In this document: piece after piece, positions 18,914 through 23,688 of the stretch
How positions within the stretch are numbered: the first letter of the stretch is position 1
How the letters are laid out: each line of letters begins with the position of its first letter
Assembly: GCA_024742935.1 (NCBI GenBank)
Contig: JANSXN010000022.1
Span: forward strand, 1-32,500
Length of the DNA stretch: 32,500 nt
Origin: Flavobacteriaceae bacterium
Lineage (GTDB): Bacteria > Bacteroidota > Bacteroidia > Flavobacteriales > Flavobacteriaceae
Direction of reading: 5' to 3'
The notes under the pieces: model-generated
Told to the model about the DNA's origin: nothing
What the model saw: only the letters and a program-made list of their open reading frames with translations
Database searches by the model: none
Made by a program: the position numbers and the translations under genes

Positions 18914-18986
18914 GATCTGGTAGCTCAGTTGGTAGAGCATCTCCCTTTTAAGGAGAGGGTCCTGGGTTCGAGCCCCAGCCAGATCA
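18914..18986 (+). tRNA. tRNA-Lys (anticodon TTT)
   Basis: A complete 73-base cloverleaf. The acceptor stem is GATCTGG with CCAGATC, and the D stem is GCTC/GAGC. The anticodon stem TCTCC/GGAGA holds the loop CTTTTAA with TTT at 18947-18949. The T stem is CTGGG/CCCAG with a TTCGAGC loop, and the discriminator base is A. CCA is not encoded (CAC follows), so the CCA enzyme at 14180 is needed. It is first of two tRNAs behind one promoter. Confidence 0.97.
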
Positions 18987-19074: not shown

Positions 19075-19158
19075 GCCCGGATGCTGGAATTGGTAGACAG
19101 GCATGGTTGAGGGCCATGTGTCCTTTAGGGCGTGTGGGTTCAAGTCCCACTTCGGGCA
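19075..19158 (+). tRNA. tRNA-Leu (anticodon GAG)
   Basis: An 84-base class II tRNA with a long variable arm. The acceptor GCCCGGA pairs with TTCGGGC (one G-T). The anticodon stem CATGG/CCATG has loop TTGAGGG with GAG at 19109-19111. The T stem is GTGGG/CCCAC with loop TTCAAGT, and the discriminator is A at 19158. CCA is not encoded. It is followed by CTTTTT, a weak stop signal. Confidence 0.96.
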
Positions 19159-19211
19159 CTTTTTAATACTCCATTTTTTAATTATCTCTTTTCTTTTCAT
19201 ACATTTACTCA

Positions 19212-19239
19212 GTTTAATAAAACTTCATACACATTAAAC
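19212..19239. promoter_or_regulatory. Candidate operator before the MerR-type gene: GTTTA-N18-TAAAC
   Basis: GTTTA (19212-19216) and TAAAC (19235-19239) form an inverted repeat with an 18-base spacer, ending 8 bases before the regulator's ATG. The same half-sites with the same spacing lie at the crtI promoter, suggesting autoregulation by the MerR-type protein. No perfect -7 box is found here, and the site was found by eye. Confidence 0.4.
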
Positions 19240-19247
19240 ATTTTTAA

Positions 19248-20144
19248 ATGGGCATCAAAACGCAATTCAGTATTAAAGATTTAGAACATTTGAGTGGCAT
19301 CAAAGCACACACTATAAGAATTTGGGAAAAGAGATACAACTTACTCGAGCCTGATAGGACTGATACAAACATCAGAACTTATGATTTGGAAAATCTGATG
19401 AAACTTCTAAATGTAACCTACCTCTACAATCACGGCTATAAAATTTCTAAAATCGCAGGTCTTCAGAATAAAGAAATAAAAAATATCATTCAGGAATCTG
19501 GTTTGCACGATTCTAAAGAGATTTATGCGCTTTCTGAGTTGAAGTCTTCAATGCTTAATTTTGACCCCCAATTGTTTCAATCAACCTTTGAAAAACTAGA
19601 AAAACAATATAATTTCAGAGAAATATTCTTTAACGTTTTCTTGCCCCTACTCAACGATATTGGACTTTTATGGCAAACCGGAACCATTGACCCCTCTCAT
19701 GAGCGTTTTATTTCTGAACTAATCAAACAAAAAATTATTATTCAGATAGAGTCTAAGTTTTCAATTCCACCTACAAAACACGAAAAACTTTTTGTACTTT
19801 TCTTACCTCTTGACGAGATACACGAAATAGGTTTATTATATGTCAATTATGAACTTTTAAATAAAGGCTACAAAACCATTTTTTTAGGAAATAATATTCC
19901 CACAAAAAACCTACAACACCTTCTCAACCACCATGATAATATCGTTTTTGTTTCTTATTTGACTGTGCAGCCAGAAAATGAAAAAATTCCTGAATTTATC
20001 AATGATCTGGATGAAAAAGCCTGTAAGGGTAACTCTAACGAAGTATGGCTTTTTGGAAGTAAATTGTTAAGTGAACCCACTGAAGATTATCCAAAACAAT
20101 TTAGAGTCTTTAAAAGCCTCTCAGATTTTATTGAAACTATCTAG
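19248..20144 (+). CDS. MerR-family regulator with B12-binding-like domain (CarH/LitR type)
   Basis: A 298-residue regulator. The N-terminal MerR winged helix spans about 6-75 (FSIKDLEHLSGIKAHTIRIWEKRYNL). A four-helix cap region with W142 (LLWQTG) follows, then a Rossmann-like cobalamin domain: FLPLDEIHEIGLLYVNYELL with the candidate axial ligand H192, then GYKTIFLGNNIP. In CarH, adenosylcobalamin keeps a repressor tetramer on DNA in the dark, and light breaks it. The CarH W-x9-E-H motif reads W142-x9-E152-R153 here, with a His at 151 instead, so the adenosyl-capping chemistry may differ. It precedes crtI by 77 bases on the same strand, implying control of carotenoid genes. B12 binding is inferred. 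Confidence 0.88.
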   Translation: MGIKTQFSIKDLEHLSGIKAHTIRIWEKRYNLLEPDRTDTNIRTYDLENLMKLLNVTYLYNHGYKISKIAGLQNKEIKNIIQESGLHDSKEIYALSELKSSMLNFDPQLFQSTFEKLEKQYNFREIFFNVFLPLLNDIGLLWQTGTIDPSHERFISELIKQKIIIQIESKFSIPPTKHEKLFVLFLPLDEIHEIGLLYVNYELLNKGYKTIFLGNNIPTKNLQHLLNHHDNIVFVSYLTVQPENEKIPEFINDLDEKACKGNSNEVWLFGSKLLSEPTEDYPKQFRVFKSLSDFIETI

Positions 20145-20185: not shown

Positions 20186-20221
20186 ATTTGTTTAGAATCT
20201 GATTACTTTTGTTAAACAAAT
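20186..20221. promoter_or_regulatory. Candidate operator over the crtI promoter
   Basis: A perfect 9-bp inverted repeat, ATTTGTTTA (20186-20194) and TAAACAAAT (20213-20221), with an 18-base spacer. It encloses the -7 box and ends at the base before the crtI ATG. It contains the GTTTA-N18-TAAAC core also present before the regulator gene. Position over the promoter suits a repressor site for the MerR/B12 protein. Confidence 0.55.
20204..20211 (+). promoter_or_regulatory. -7 box of the crt operon
   Basis: TACTTTTG matches TAnnTTTG and ends 10 bases before the crtI ATG, giving a leader of only about six bases. It lies within the inverted repeat. Confidence 0.6.
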
Positions 20222-21685
20222 ATGAAAAAAAATATTTCCATCATCGGTTCCGGATTTTCAGCATTGGCAGCTTCTTGTTATTTAGCTAAAGCAGGAAACA
20301 ATGTGACCATCTATGAAAAAAATACCACTGTTGGCGGGAGAGCAAGGCAATTTAAAAAAGATGGGTTTACCTTTGATATTGGTCCCACTTGGTACTGGAT
20401 GCCTGATGTTTTTGAAAAGTTTTTTGCTGATTTTGATAAAACCCCATCTGATTATTATGACCTAATAAAACTCAACCCTGCATATAGTGTTTATTTTGGT
20501 GAAAATGATTTTATATCCATTGAGGACACTCTAGAAAAAATTTGCAAGGCCTTTGAAAAAGAAGAAAAAGGGAGCTCTGTAAAACTCAGAATGTTTATTG
20601 CAGAAGCACAAGATAATTACAATATTGCCATTAAAGATTTGGTCTATCGTCCGGGTGTTTCTCCGCTGGAGTTAGTCACTCCTGTCACGATGAAAAAAAT
20701 TGGGCAATTTTTTAGTACCATTAGTAAAGAAGTGCGCAAGGAATTTAAAAATGAGCGGCTGGTTGCCATTCTTGAATTTCCTGTATTGTTTCTTGGGGCT
20801 AAAGCCTCAAACACCCCTGCATTTTATAGTTTTATGAACTATGCAGATTTTGGTTTGGGCACTTTTCACCCCAAAGATGGCATGTACAGTGTTATTCTGG
20901 CAATGAAATCATTGGCTGAAGAATTGGGTGTTACAATACATACACAACAAAATGTGGAAAAAATAATTGTAGAAAATAAAAAAGCTGTAGGAATCCAAGT
21001 GAACGGAACAAATGTTTCTTCAGACCTCGTTTTAAGTGGCGCAGACTACCATCATACAGAAACACTTTTAGACAATATTCACAGACAATATTCAGAAAAA
21101 TATTGGGATAAGAAAATATTTGCACCATCTTCTCTGCTTTTCTATGTGGGATTTGATAAAAAAATAGAAAATGTGGAACACCACACCTTATTTTTTGATG
21201 TTGATTTTGCCAAGCATGCACAAGCAATTTATGATACCCCGCAATGGCCGGATGATCCCCTCTTTTATGCTAGTTTCCCATCAAAAACAGATGATAATGC
21301 GGCACCTGAAGGAAAAGAAGCCGGTATCTTTTTGATACCTCTTGCGCCGGGTCTAAGTGATACTCCAGAATTGAGAGAAAATTATTTTAATAAAATAATG
21401 ACTCGTTTTGAGAAATTAACCAACCAAGAAGTTAAAAATTTCGTTATATTTAAGGAAAGCTTTTGTGTGAATGATTTTATAGAACAATATAACTCTTATA
21501 AGGGAAATGCATACGGGTTGGCTAACACATTATTTCAAACCGCTTTCCTGAGACCAAAATTAAAAAGTAAAAAAGTGAAAAATCTTTATTTTACAGGTCA
21601 GTTAAGTGTGCCGGGGCCGGGAGTTCCTCCGTCTTTAATTTCTGGAAAGTTAACTGCGCAGCTTATAGAAAAATATAGTAATTAA
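20222..21685 (+). CDS. crtI: Phytoene desaturase CrtI
   Basis: A 487-residue FAD-dependent carotenoid desaturase that converts phytoene to lycopene at the membrane. The dinucleotide-binding fold is at the N-terminus (IIGSGFSALAASCYLAKAG from 7, then the acidic end of strand 2 in IYEK), followed by VGGRARQF and GFTFDIGPTWYWMP. The C-terminal signature is YFTGQLSVPGPGVPPSLISG. Length fits bacterial CrtI. It leads an operon: crtB begins 16 bases after, crtZ 1 base after that, and crtYcd 3 bases later. It starts at the first ATG, directly after the operator-like repeat. CrtD- and CrtI-type enzymes look alike, but first position beside crtB supports CrtI. Confidence 0.94.
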   Translation: MKKNISIIGSGFSALAASCYLAKAGNNVTIYEKNTTVGGRARQFKKDGFTFDIGPTWYWMPDVFEKFFADFDKTPSDYYDLIKLNPAYSVYFGENDFISIEDTLEKICKAFEKEEKGSSVKLRMFIAEAQDNYNIAIKDLVYRPGVSPLELVTPVTMKKIGQFFSTISKEVRKEFKNERLVAILEFPVLFLGAKASNTPAFYSFMNYADFGLGTFHPKDGMYSVILAMKSLAEELGVTIHTQQNVEKIIVENKKAVGIQVNGTNVSSDLVLSGADYHHTETLLDNIHRQYSEKYWDKKIFAPSSLLFYVGFDKKIENVEHHTLFFDVDFAKHAQAIYDTPQWPDDPLFYASFPSKTDDNAAPEGKEAGIFLIPLAPGLSDTPELRENYFNKIMTRFEKLTNQEVKNFVIFKESFCVNDFIEQYNSYKGNAYGLANTLFQTAFLRPKLKSKKVKNLYFTGQLSVPGPGVPPSLISGKLTAQLIEKYSN

Positions 21686-21701: not shown

Positions 21702-22541
21702 ATGAAAGCTTTATTTGACACTGTTTCTGAAAAATGTAGTAAAACTGTAACAAAGTCTTACAGTACTTCTTTTTCAATTGCAACAAAGATGCTAGCTCCC
21801 ACAATTAGACAGGATATCTACAACATTTATGGTTTTGTAAGATTTGCAGACGAGATTGTGGATTCTTTTCACGATTATGACAAAGAAAGTCTCTTCAATC
21901 GTTTTGAAGAGTCTCTTGAAAATGCACTTGTTGATAAAATAAGTCTCAATCCCATTTTAAACTCTTTTCAACATACCTATCACAAATATAACATTGACAA
22001 ACACCTGGTCGATTCTTTCATGAACAGTATGAAACTCGATTTATCCAAAACAAATTACTTGACACATGAGGAATTTAAAGCGTATATTTATGGTTCAGCA
22101 GATGTTGTTGGATTGATGTGTCTCAAAGTATTTGTGAAAGGCAATCAAAACAAATATGAAGAATTAAAAGAATCTGCGATGCACCTGGGTTCTGCGTTTC
22201 AAAAAGTGAATTTTTTAAGAGATTTAAAAGCCGATTATGAAGATTTAAGCAGAAGCTACTTTCCAAATACTGATTTGGAGAAGCTCGACGAAGATTCTAA
22301 AAACAATATCATTGCTGAAATTGAGCACAATTTCAATATGGGATTACAAGGTATACATCAATTGCCGGCAGATGCAAAATTTGGGGTTTATACCGCCTTT
22401 ATTTATTACAAAAAATTACTTAATAAGTTAAAGAAAACCCCCTCAACTGAAATTAAAAATACACGTATAAGAGTCAATAATTATCAAAAAATGGGATTAC
22501 TCGCAAAATGTTATGTTAACTATAGATTAAACTTGCTTTAA
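21702..22541 (+). CDS. crtB: Phytoene synthase CrtB
   Basis: A 279-residue squalene/phytoene synthase family enzyme that condenses two geranylgeranyl diphosphates head-to-head into phytoene. Both aspartate-rich metal sites are present: RFADEIVD with DEIVD at 50-54, and RDLKADYED at 172-180. The conserved SYSTSFSIATKML (19-31) and YGSADVVGLM (129-138) segments are also seen. The position between crtI and crtZ makes phytoene synthase more likely than squalene synthase. The GGPP synthase that feeds it is not in the window. Confidence 0.95.
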   Translation: MKALFDTVSEKCSKTVTKSYSTSFSIATKMLAPTIRQDIYNIYGFVRFADEIVDSFHDYDKESLFNRFEESLENALVDKISLNPILNSFQHTYHKYNIDKHLVDSFMNSMKLDLSKTNYLTHEEFKAYIYGSADVVGLMCLKVFVKGNQNKYEELKESAMHLGSAFQKVNFLRDLKADYEDLSRSYFPNTDLEKLDEDSKNNIIAEIEHNFNMGLQGIHQLPADAKFGVYTAFIYYKKLLNKLKKTPSTEIKNTRIRVNNYQKMGLLAKCYVNYRLNLL

Positions 22542-22542
22542 A

Positions 22543-22992
22543 ATGGAAATTTTACTTTGGATTGTTGTTTTTATCGGGACATTTTTCATAATGGAGTTTA
22601 TGGCCTGGTTCACGCACAAATATGTTATGCACGGTTTTTTATGGAGTTTGCATAAAGATCACCATAAAAAAGACCACGACAGCTGGTGGGAGCGCAATGA
22701 TTTTTTCTTTATTTTTTATGCTGCAGTAAGTATTGGTTTTTTTCTTTTATGGAAAAATTATGACTTTTGGTATGGATTGCCCATTGGATTAGGAATTTTT
22801 GCCTATGGGCTCACCTACTTTTTTGTCCATGACATCTTTATTCACCAGCGTTTTAAACTTTTCAGAAATGCCAACAACTGGTATGCAAAAGCCATTAGAA
22901 GAGCACATAAAATGCACCATAAACATACAGGAAAAGACAAAGGAGAAAGCTTTGGAATGTTAATTCCACCATTAAAATATTTTAAAAAATAA
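22543..22992 (+). CDS. crtZ: Beta-carotene hydroxylase CrtZ
   Basis: A 149-residue membrane di-iron hydroxylase that adds 3-hydroxyls to beta-ionone rings, turning beta-carotene into zeaxanthin. All four His clusters are complete: H25xxxxH30 (HKYVMH), H37xxH40H41 (HKDHH), H96xxxxH101 (HDIFIH) and H122xxH125H126 (HKMHH). Four hydrophobic segments surround them. It begins one base after the crtB stop and lies 3 bases before crtYcd, so it is firmly in the operon. The final pigment may be modified further by genes elsewhere. Confidence 0.95.
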   Translation: MEILLWIVVFIGTFFIMEFMAWFTHKYVMHGFLWSLHKDHHKKDHDSWWERNDFFFIFYAAVSIGFFLLWKNYDFWYGLPIGLGIFAYGLTYFFVHDIFIHQRFKLFRNANNWYAKAIRRAHKMHHKHTGKDKGESFGMLIPPLKYFKK

Positions 22993-22995
22993 ATT

Positions 22996-23688
22996 ATGGA
23001 TTCGCTTTATCTCTGGTTGAATCTCGGGTCGCTTTCCATTCCTTTTTTATATAGTTTTCACCCAAAGCTAAAACTCTACAGAAAATGGAAATACATGTTT
23101 CCGGCAATTGGGATTATGATGCTCTTTTTCATCCCTTGGGACATTGTTTTTACAGCAAACGGATATTGGGGTTTTAATCCCAAATACCTCATTGGACTCT
23201 ACTTAGTGAATCTTCCCATAGAGGAGTGGTTGTTTTTTATTTGCATTCCTTATGCCTGTATTTTCACTCATTATGCGTTGCTTTACTACTTTCCAGATAT
23301 GAAATTGCCTGAAAAAGCCACAACCCGCATCACATATCTTTTGATTTTGAGCATGACTGTTGTGGTGATTCTTTTTTATGACCGGTGGTATCCTTTAATA
23401 AATTTTGGGTATGCTATTCTACTACTTGTTCTAGTCCTCAAATTTGAAAAAGAATTACTTCAAAAATATTACCTTACATTTTTAGTGATGCTTATACCGT
23501 TTTTTATAGTAAATGGGGTACTCACCGGAAGCTTCATAGAAGAACAAGTAGTCTGGTATGACAATTCTCAAAATTTAAGTATCAGAATGTTTACCATTCC
23601 TGTTGAGGACAGTATCTACGCATTCACAATGATTTTAACACCGCTCGTTATAACTGAGTATTGGGCAAGAAAAAAGAGCATTACATAG
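22996..23688 (+). CDS. crtYcd: Fused lycopene cyclase CrtYcd
   Basis: A 230-residue polytopic membrane protein made of two lycopene cyclase domains in tandem. Each has the family's acidic motif: LPIEEWLFF at 73-81 and IPVEDSIYAF at 201-210. About seven hydrophobic segments are visible. In actinobacteria the halves are separate CrtYc and CrtYd subunits; the fused form is usual in flavobacteria and archaea. It closes lycopene ends into beta rings, giving beta-carotene for CrtZ. It is the last gene of the operon; I see no hairpin terminator in the 93 bases after it. Confidence 0.93.
   Translation: MDSLYLWLNLGSLSIPFLYSFHPKLKLYRKWKYMFPAIGIMMLFFIPWDIVFTANGYWGFNPKYLIGLYLVNLPIEEWLFFICIPYACIFTHYALLYYFPDMKLPEKATTRITYLLILSMTVVVILFYDRWYPLINFGYAILLLVLVLKFEKELLQKYYLTFLVMLIPFFIVNGVLTGSFIEEQVVWYDNSQNLSIRMFTIPVEDSIYAFTMILTPLVITEYWARKKSIT

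Follow-up and report, generated by a model that had tools for sequence, protein, structure and literature searches.

The locus described here raises the question of what becomes of a B12-dependent regulator when one residue of its adenosyl-capping motif is exchanged. The window analysed (the whole stretch of 32,500 nucleotides, positions 1 to 32,500 of contig JANSXN010000022.1, assembly GCA_024742935.1, from a Flavobacteriaceae bacterium) carries at 19248–20144 (+) the gene of a MerR/B12-binding regulator of 298 amino acids, in which Arg153 stands where CarH has the capping histidine. An earlier note on this DNA had proposed a variant B12 light or oxygen sensor. We consider it likely that the protein is a LitR/CarH-like repressor that acts on photoprotection genes and probably binds adenosylcobalamin (AdoCbl), and that its change at the rim of the pocket is tolerated and specific to one clade. 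It probably switches on the carotenoid and light-damage-repair genes of flavobacteria upon light.

An arginine at the capping position

We examined the open reading frame and its translation using Pfam, solved relatives and an AlphaFold2 model. A MerR DNA-binding domain occupies residues 7–73 (19266–19466, +; Pfam MerR_1, E 2.5e-13) and is followed by a four-helix-bundle B12-binding_2 domain at residues 96–163 (19533–19736, +; PF02607, E 2.8e-8). The Rossmann domain gives no Pfam match and is present in the model and in its fold match to the Protein Data Bank (PDB). The model was built from 55 native relatives (mean predicted local distance difference test score 90), and its best PDB fold matches are Thermus thermophilus CarH (TtCarH), CtMerR and the photocobilins. 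Against the cobalamin-binding domain (CBD) of TtCarH, VIA-align gave a Z of about 17.8 (17 to 18) with a root mean square deviation of 2.6 Å over about 196 residues. The nearest solved relatives are TtCarH, TtLitR and CtMerR by fold, and TtCarH/LitR also by sequence. The architecture of the LitR/CarH superfamily (MerR helix-turn-helix, four-helix bundle, Rossmann B12 domain) is present, the last part as modelled. The LitR/CarH-like identity given in the earlier note was borne out by these domains and relatives, and its MerR domain, W142, H151, E152, R153 and H192 all recur in the translation and the MerR_1 match.

For comparison we used 193 Flavobacteriaceae loci, 113 from family genomes and 80 from named contigs, with some genomes in both. 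The 113, from the stronger among the matches in 205 family genomes, comprise 33 returned by the searches (3 from the genus search) and 80 that were fetched; the 80 loci from named contigs are the best of 566. To these we added 40 loci of other Bacteroidia, hand-chosen from 118 matching genomes of the class and all filed under families other than the window's; in one tree L270 and L271 fall among Flavobacteriaceae. The recognition-helix motif RIWEKRY (residues 24–30) occurs in 191 of the 193 loci; RxWERRY is its counterpart in CarH (PMC9304148).

The protein was aligned with TtCarH by phmmer and by a profile. W142, E152, R153 and H192 fall on W131, E141, H142 and H177, and Q143, directly after the cap Trp, falls on His132. 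Trp131 and Glu141 of TtCarH contact the adenosyl group, the first by stacking and the second by a hydrogen bond (PMC10442372). The capping motif of the window protein (19671–19706, +) reads W142-x9-E152-R153, with the Arg codon at 19704–19706; it has the Trp and the Glu of Wx9EH and lacks the His, and the complete Wx9EH is found in 157 of the 193 flavobacterial relatives. H151 aligns with E140 of TtCarH, one column ahead of the Glu, and so does not occupy the capping position; it is equally common in the relatives with His153, and we ruled it out as a stand-in. The His-to-Arg replacement pointed out in the earlier note is real: in the alignments to TtCarH, R153 stands on H142 and no other residue occupies that column. 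The axial-ligand motif E/DxHx2G is present as E190-I-H192-E-I-G195 (19815–19832, +). W142, E152, E190 and H192 are invariant in 193/193 flavobacterial and 40/40 other Bacteroidia loci.

At residue 153, 157 of the flavobacterial loci have His, 33 have Arg, 2 have Ser and one has Gln; His is the residue in 40/40 loci of the other families. The presence of Arg in 33 loci, including 5/5 genomes of the genus, shows that R153 is no sequencing accident. Trees were made from thinned sets of 172 and 112 rows, with the trait column removed, and rooted on other families. All 27 Arg rows left after thinning sit in one clade of 37 rows (Shimodaira–Hasegawa-like approximate likelihood ratio test, SH-aLRT, 99), in which Arg153 is derived. 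Inside this clade, His is found in three separate groups and Ser in two rows, and at least 6 changes between Arg and other residues are needed in one thinned tree and at least 5 in the other. This suggests that position 153 is tunable and non-essential. Asp148 is present in all 33 R153 loci and in 43 of the 193 overall, the ten without Arg153 having His or Ser there. In the thinned tree, the 37 rows with D148 are exactly the Arg clade; L278, a His153 locus outside the family, also has D148. Judged from the sequences compared, R153 is a real, clade-wide trait of a sub-clade and no private oddity. Of the proposed variant light or oxygen sensor, the variant thus stands as a sub-clade trait in a family where 157/193 loci keep His, and the oxygen sensing found no support.

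All 33 R153 loci retain W142 and E152, and 31 of these loci lack His at both 143 and 153; the other two have His143. Two His153 lineages inside the Arg clade also have His143, and L014 combines His153 with Gln143. We do not claim a coupling of the two positions; the sign test (median p 1) was powerless, as it had only 3 independent pairs.

A predicted operator and the genes behind it

The regulator heads a crtI-crtB-crtZ-crtY cluster. It adjoins these crt genes together with a conserved predicted operator, and may control carotenoid or light-protection genes as class I (AdoCbl photoreceptor) LitR/CarH proteins do. The operator came to light when the intervals ahead of crtI in relatives were compared, and is a 30-bp element of the form TGTTTA-N14-TTGTTAAACA. 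In the window it is an exact match (TGTTTAGAATCTGATTACTTTTGTTAAACA; 20189–20218, +), kept before crtI in relatives, with 3 bp between its end and the start codon of crtI. The spacing in several relatives is 0–2 bp. With so short a gap, the transcript of the crt genes would have almost no leader. Inside the operator we read directly the sequence TACTTTTG (20204–20211, +), a case of TAnnTTTG, the Bacteroidota −7 promoter box. TAnn stands mostly directly 5' of TTTG (TAnnTTYG in 110 of 147 distinct operator sites), and the TA was not part of the search pattern.

Within 200 bp 3' of the regulator gene, the exact operator was observed in 21/30 R153 loci and 25/81 His153 loci. With at most one mismatch, the numbers were 27/30 and 27/81, and shuffled sequences gave 0/565. 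In many of the His153 loci the gap between the regulator and crtI is too short for the operator, so the promoter of the cluster would lie elsewhere. A candidate autoregulatory operator with 2 mismatches is located upstream of the regulator (19211–19240, −) and has both half-sites in 3/5 genus members; it is a weak candidate, since 2-mismatch matches are partly due to chance. An exact operator stands directly upstream of the regulator gene in the relative L361.

Across the family, the exact operator was present in 157 of 249 genomes. We divided the genomes by their regulator match, calling it strong at E below 1e-50 (a threshold set after viewing the match list), and tallied them by hand. The operator was found in 143/186 genomes with a strong match, 4/19 with a weak match and 10/44 with none (143/186 versus 14/63 for the rest; p 1.6e-14). 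A reversed-pattern control was found in 46/249 genomes; therefore, genomes without a strong regulator are near background for the operator.

We then looked at the surroundings of the operator sites. Among 30 unselected loci, one per genome from a draw of 110 genomes and several of them being the crtI site, 20 sites were intergenic and had the start of a gene of 120 or more amino acids within 50 bp, compared to 1 of 30 reversed-pattern control loci from a 249-genome draw (p 2e-7). Of 60 sites hand-chosen from the matches listed, for which consensus-like ones were preferred and most of those beside the regulator gene were omitted, 42 were intergenic with a gene start within 50 bp. Of the 54 proteins found downstream in this set, 42 have homologues at other sites (control proteins, 0/12).

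Pfam families were counted for 84 of 88 downstream proteins from 57 mostly hand-chosen sites, four long second genes being omitted. We observed fasciclin (14), Porph_ging of the GLPGLI type (10), ABC1 kinase (6), a TetR partner (6), GTP cyclohydrolase I (5), phytoene synthase (5), CrtI-type oxidase (5), DUF2805 (4), MsrA (3), and photolyase, photolyase-related, UbiA and GHMP kinase (2 each). The genes behind the operator sites form a light-protection set. Fasciclin is the commonest type (listed by eye: L133, L134, L140, L142, L147, L150, L153, L154, L161, L169, L171, L175, L178 and L189). A TetR-type gene paired with an ABC1/UbiB-like kinase gene stands directly behind the operator in L135, L149, L155, L160, L170 and L181. 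The operator directly precedes a rhodopsin gene in one genome and the gene for beta-carotene 15,15'-dioxygenase (blh) in another (L182 and L187), which suggests that B12 light sensing is linked to rhodopsin phototrophy.

The window's own genome (2.63 Mb, estimated 99% complete), where the regulator is the sole match at E 0.001, has 2 exact operators under the stricter pattern and 3 under the looser one. The second exact site precedes msrA-folE. Besides the window, we read the surroundings of seven of the 36 sites with at most 2 mismatches. One 2-mismatch site precedes a photolyase operon consisting of an SRPBCC-like gene, a short-chain dehydrogenase gene and the photolyase gene. In the relative L350 an exact site precedes homologues of this operon's first two genes (70% and 59% identity). 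Another 2-mismatch site lies 91 bp upstream of a fasciclin gene (L127:3837-4415, −). The sites on C71, C98, C103 and C109 have unrelated neighbouring genes and may be chance matches; under the looser pattern C103:41007 counts as an exact site, and we assigned it no regulon role.

Light is the probable signal, mainly from the gene list shared with light-regulated systems elsewhere. In Pseudomonas, phrB, folE and cryB are induced by light under the control of LitR proteins, and a short-chain dehydrogenase (SDR) gene lies in the same light-induced operon (PMC9758184). Chryseobacterium lacus makes carotenoids only in the light, with its crt genes induced, and CarA/LitR is mentioned in that report (PMC7064467).

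The supply of the presumed ligand was also examined. A cobalamin adenosyltransferase (PF01923) is encoded by 5/5 genus genomes and 232/249 family genomes. It is present in all 23 R153 genomes checked, which account for the R153 loci other than the 10 on named contigs. By hand tally, the enzyme is encoded in 182/186 strong-regulator genomes, compared to 50/63 of the others (Fisher p 6e-6), an association that small or incomplete genomes may confound and in part explain. The window's own genome also encodes a methylmalonyl-CoA mutase; a second match to it (G000 C69:16543-17487), beside the main one, has one in-frame TAG stop.

A proposed switch and a possible role of Arg153

LitR/CarH proteins of class I bind AdoCbl and are dark tetramers that light releases. 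In the mechanism that we propose, AdoCbl would be held between the four-helix bundle (W142, E152) and the Rossmann domain, with H192 as the axial ligand. In the dark the holo-protein would sit on the 30-bp operator over the −7 box of crtI and keep the gene off, and would do the same at the site before msrA-folE and probably at those before the photolyase operon and the fasciclin gene. Light would break the Co–C bond and release the protein, so that the cell would begin to make carotenoids and to repair light damage. R153 would probably reshape the rim of the adenosyl pocket without abolishing adenosyl binding. A natural guess at how this could happen is a D148–R153 salt bridge where the second bundle helix begins. 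The Trp, the Glu, the axial His, the operator and the adenosyltransferase are all kept in the Arg clade, which argues against the protein having lost its function or changed to another form of B12; decay or lost B12 use likewise found no support. R153 may tune the photochemistry, and the protein looks like a tuned version, neither a broken nor a wholly new sensor.

Several observations weigh against a CarH-type switch. The NCBIfam CarH equivalog model NF052513 gave 62.2 bits against a cut-off of 400. The published signature of light-responsive CBDs consists of GxxW, EH, GxxH and GxxxP (PMC11796333); the window protein has GxxW and GxxxP and lacks the other two, and the full signature was found in 0/193 flavobacterial loci and in 19/40 loci of other Bacteroidia. 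The main cause is GxxH, present in 7/193 flavobacterial loci, where the usual reading is NxxH. For these reasons we call the regulator LitR/CarH-like and not CarH. The counterpart of TtCarH His132, which turns into the light-state ligand (PMC10442372), is Gln in the window protein. The second half of the B12 motif, SxT/V...GG in the published form (PMC9304148), reads S236-Y-L...F269-G270, so that the classic GG is FG. Among the relatives, the common form is SYFT with LG or MG. SxL is an accepted variant of the motif. On the side of the operator, the exact site right after the regulator is confined to 25 of the 81 His153 loci, 43/186 strong-regulator genomes have no exact site and 14/63 of the others have one. 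The photolyase, fasciclin and regulator sites of the own genome are all 2-mismatch sites, a grade that gave 36 matches versus 14 for the reversed pattern. Two genomes, G012 and G067 (each estimated 99% complete), have the regulator and no PF01923 match.

The degenerate GG and GxxH positions, together with these two near-complete genomes, would also fit a B12-independent regulator that resembles CarA or class II LitR, merely retains the old fold and follows another photoreceptor or signal. There is a precedent, as class II LitR of Pseudomonas acts via a LOV protein and is believed to bind no B12 (PMC9758184). We consider this unlikely, since H192, W142 and E152 are invariant in 233/233 loci, which is unexpected if the ligand were lost, and the two-domain CBD fold is kept in the model. 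CarA has lost the Trp of Wx9EH and kept EH, and Myxococcus CarA has no such Trp (PMC9304148), whereas W142 is present throughout. A modelled Rossmann domain with an invariant H192 also sets the protein apart from class II LitR. A different proposal, made in the earlier note, is that Arg153 alters the form of cobalamin used (methyl- or hydroxo-), or gives an oxygen sensor or an altered oligomer. The company of D148 in 33/33 loci and the lack of His at 143 and 153 in 31/33 speak for some such change of function. However, the counterparts of the adenosyl-contacting residues are unchanged in 33/33 loci, the adenosyltransferase is there in 23/23 genomes, the operator before crtI is kept in 27/30 loci at one mismatch or less, and His or Ser replaces Arg in several clade members, which fits drift or tuning. 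We found no support for these ideas, and regard them as quite improbable. It is very unlikely, too, that the operator is the site of another regulator or mainly a promoter element, with our regulator acting elsewhere. TAnnTTTG is by itself the Bacteroidota −7 box and lies within the operator in 110/147 sites, and the 43 strong-regulator genomes without an exact site would agree with this. Yet the operator is near background without a strong regulator, L361 has its exact site directly before the regulator gene, and the searched pair TGTTTA/TTAAACA about 21 bp apart goes beyond a −7 box. The pair moreover contains the TnnACA core of the CarH repeats (PMC9304148).

In the 31 R153 loci that have neither upper-face His, a bis-His light state of the TtCarH kind would be out of reach unless a different His moved into place. 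For TtCarH without His132, most tetramers stayed intact after light in one study, and an earlier report differs (PMC10442372). SasPcob, an AdoCbl photoreceptor, likewise has Gln at the His132 position (PMC11796333). A tentative idea, to which we give clearly less than an even chance, is that the R153 branch is an AdoCbl photoreceptor without an upper-face His that dissociates via Glu152, water or an Arg153–D148 latch, as part of a family-wide B12 switch. If so, the switch could be slower, more easily reset or differently sensitive, and the R153 form would be one setting of a B12 switch for carotenoids, photolyase, pterin supply and sometimes rhodopsin and retinal synthesis. The natural H/R/S series at residue 153 offers a ready set for work on the role of the capping His.

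Known systems and neighbouring genes

CarH/LitR of Thermus thermophilus shares with the window protein the MerR, four-helix-bundle and Rossmann domains, W-x9-E, the axial His and, as predicted here, carotenoid control. It differs in sequence (about 20% CBD identity) and in the residues discussed, with R153 here for His142, Q143 for His132, DxxH for GxxH and FG for GG. The predicted operator also differs, being TGTTTA...TTAAACA about 21 bp apart, unlike the 11-bp tandem direct repeats of CarH. CtMerR of Chloracidobacterium, an AdoCbl photoreceptor, is likewise a MerR-CBD protein (fold Z about 17) in which the His132 ligand is naturally replaced, by Arg there and by Gln here; unlike the window protein, it retains the EH and GxxH elements (PMC11796333). 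The CBD of the photocobilin SasPcob (fold Z 16.8) shares the Gln, and its AdoCbl responds to green light by spectroscopy (PMC11796333), but it is no MerR regulator and has the EH signature. The class II LitR proteins PplR and PmlR of Pseudomonas are MerR regulators with a similar gene list (light-induced phrB, SDR, folE and cry); in contrast, they are without the axial-His Rossmann B12 domain and are controlled by a short LOV protein (PMC9758184). In Nonlabens spongiae a MerR-family gene also stands at the head of crtI, crtB, crtZ and crtY. That cluster further has crtD, cruF and crtA-OH, and in the part of the report available the MerR gene is just listed, with no analysis of regulon, operator or B12 (PMC11855829).

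Our literature search, mostly of open literature and hence no proof of absence, did not find this operator, this regulon or an Arg-capped CarH. For Flavobacteriaceae no light-sensing regulator was named with a regulon among the papers listed, though one reports light-induced carotenoids in Chryseobacterium (PMC7064467). The published B12-photoreceptor signature would miss all 193 flavobacterial loci, and the reach of B12 light sensing may thus be underestimated. Flavobacteriaceae are pigmented, often rhodopsin-bearing aquatic bacteria. For them the data point to a single regulator with a single predicted operator and regulon, the strong regulator match being present in 186/249 sampled genomes.

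The genes of the crt cluster were identified as follows. The crtI-type carotenoid desaturase gene (20222–21685, +) scores 727 bits with NCBIfam NF058655 CrtID (cut-off 640), and is thus above the cut-off of a model for a bifunctional phytoene desaturase/3,4-desaturase. It is followed by a phytoene synthase-like gene, crtB (21702–22541, +; Pfam SQS_PSY, 156 bits, cut-off 26), which the NCBIfam phytoene/squalene synthase models match below their cut-offs in all cases. The third gene (22543–22992, +) encodes a probable carotene hydroxylase (Pfam FA_hydroxylase, 48 bits, cut-off 31; no NCBIfam match), and we take it to be crtZ from its position, as in the Nonlabens spongiae cluster (PMC11855829). 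The last is a lycopene cyclase gene of the crtYcd type (22996–23688, +; NCBIfam TIGR03462, 92 bits, cut-off 39; Pfam Lycopene_cyc, 135 bits). Just 5' of the regulator are two tRNA genes (Rfam), at 18914–18986 and 19075–19158 of the window.
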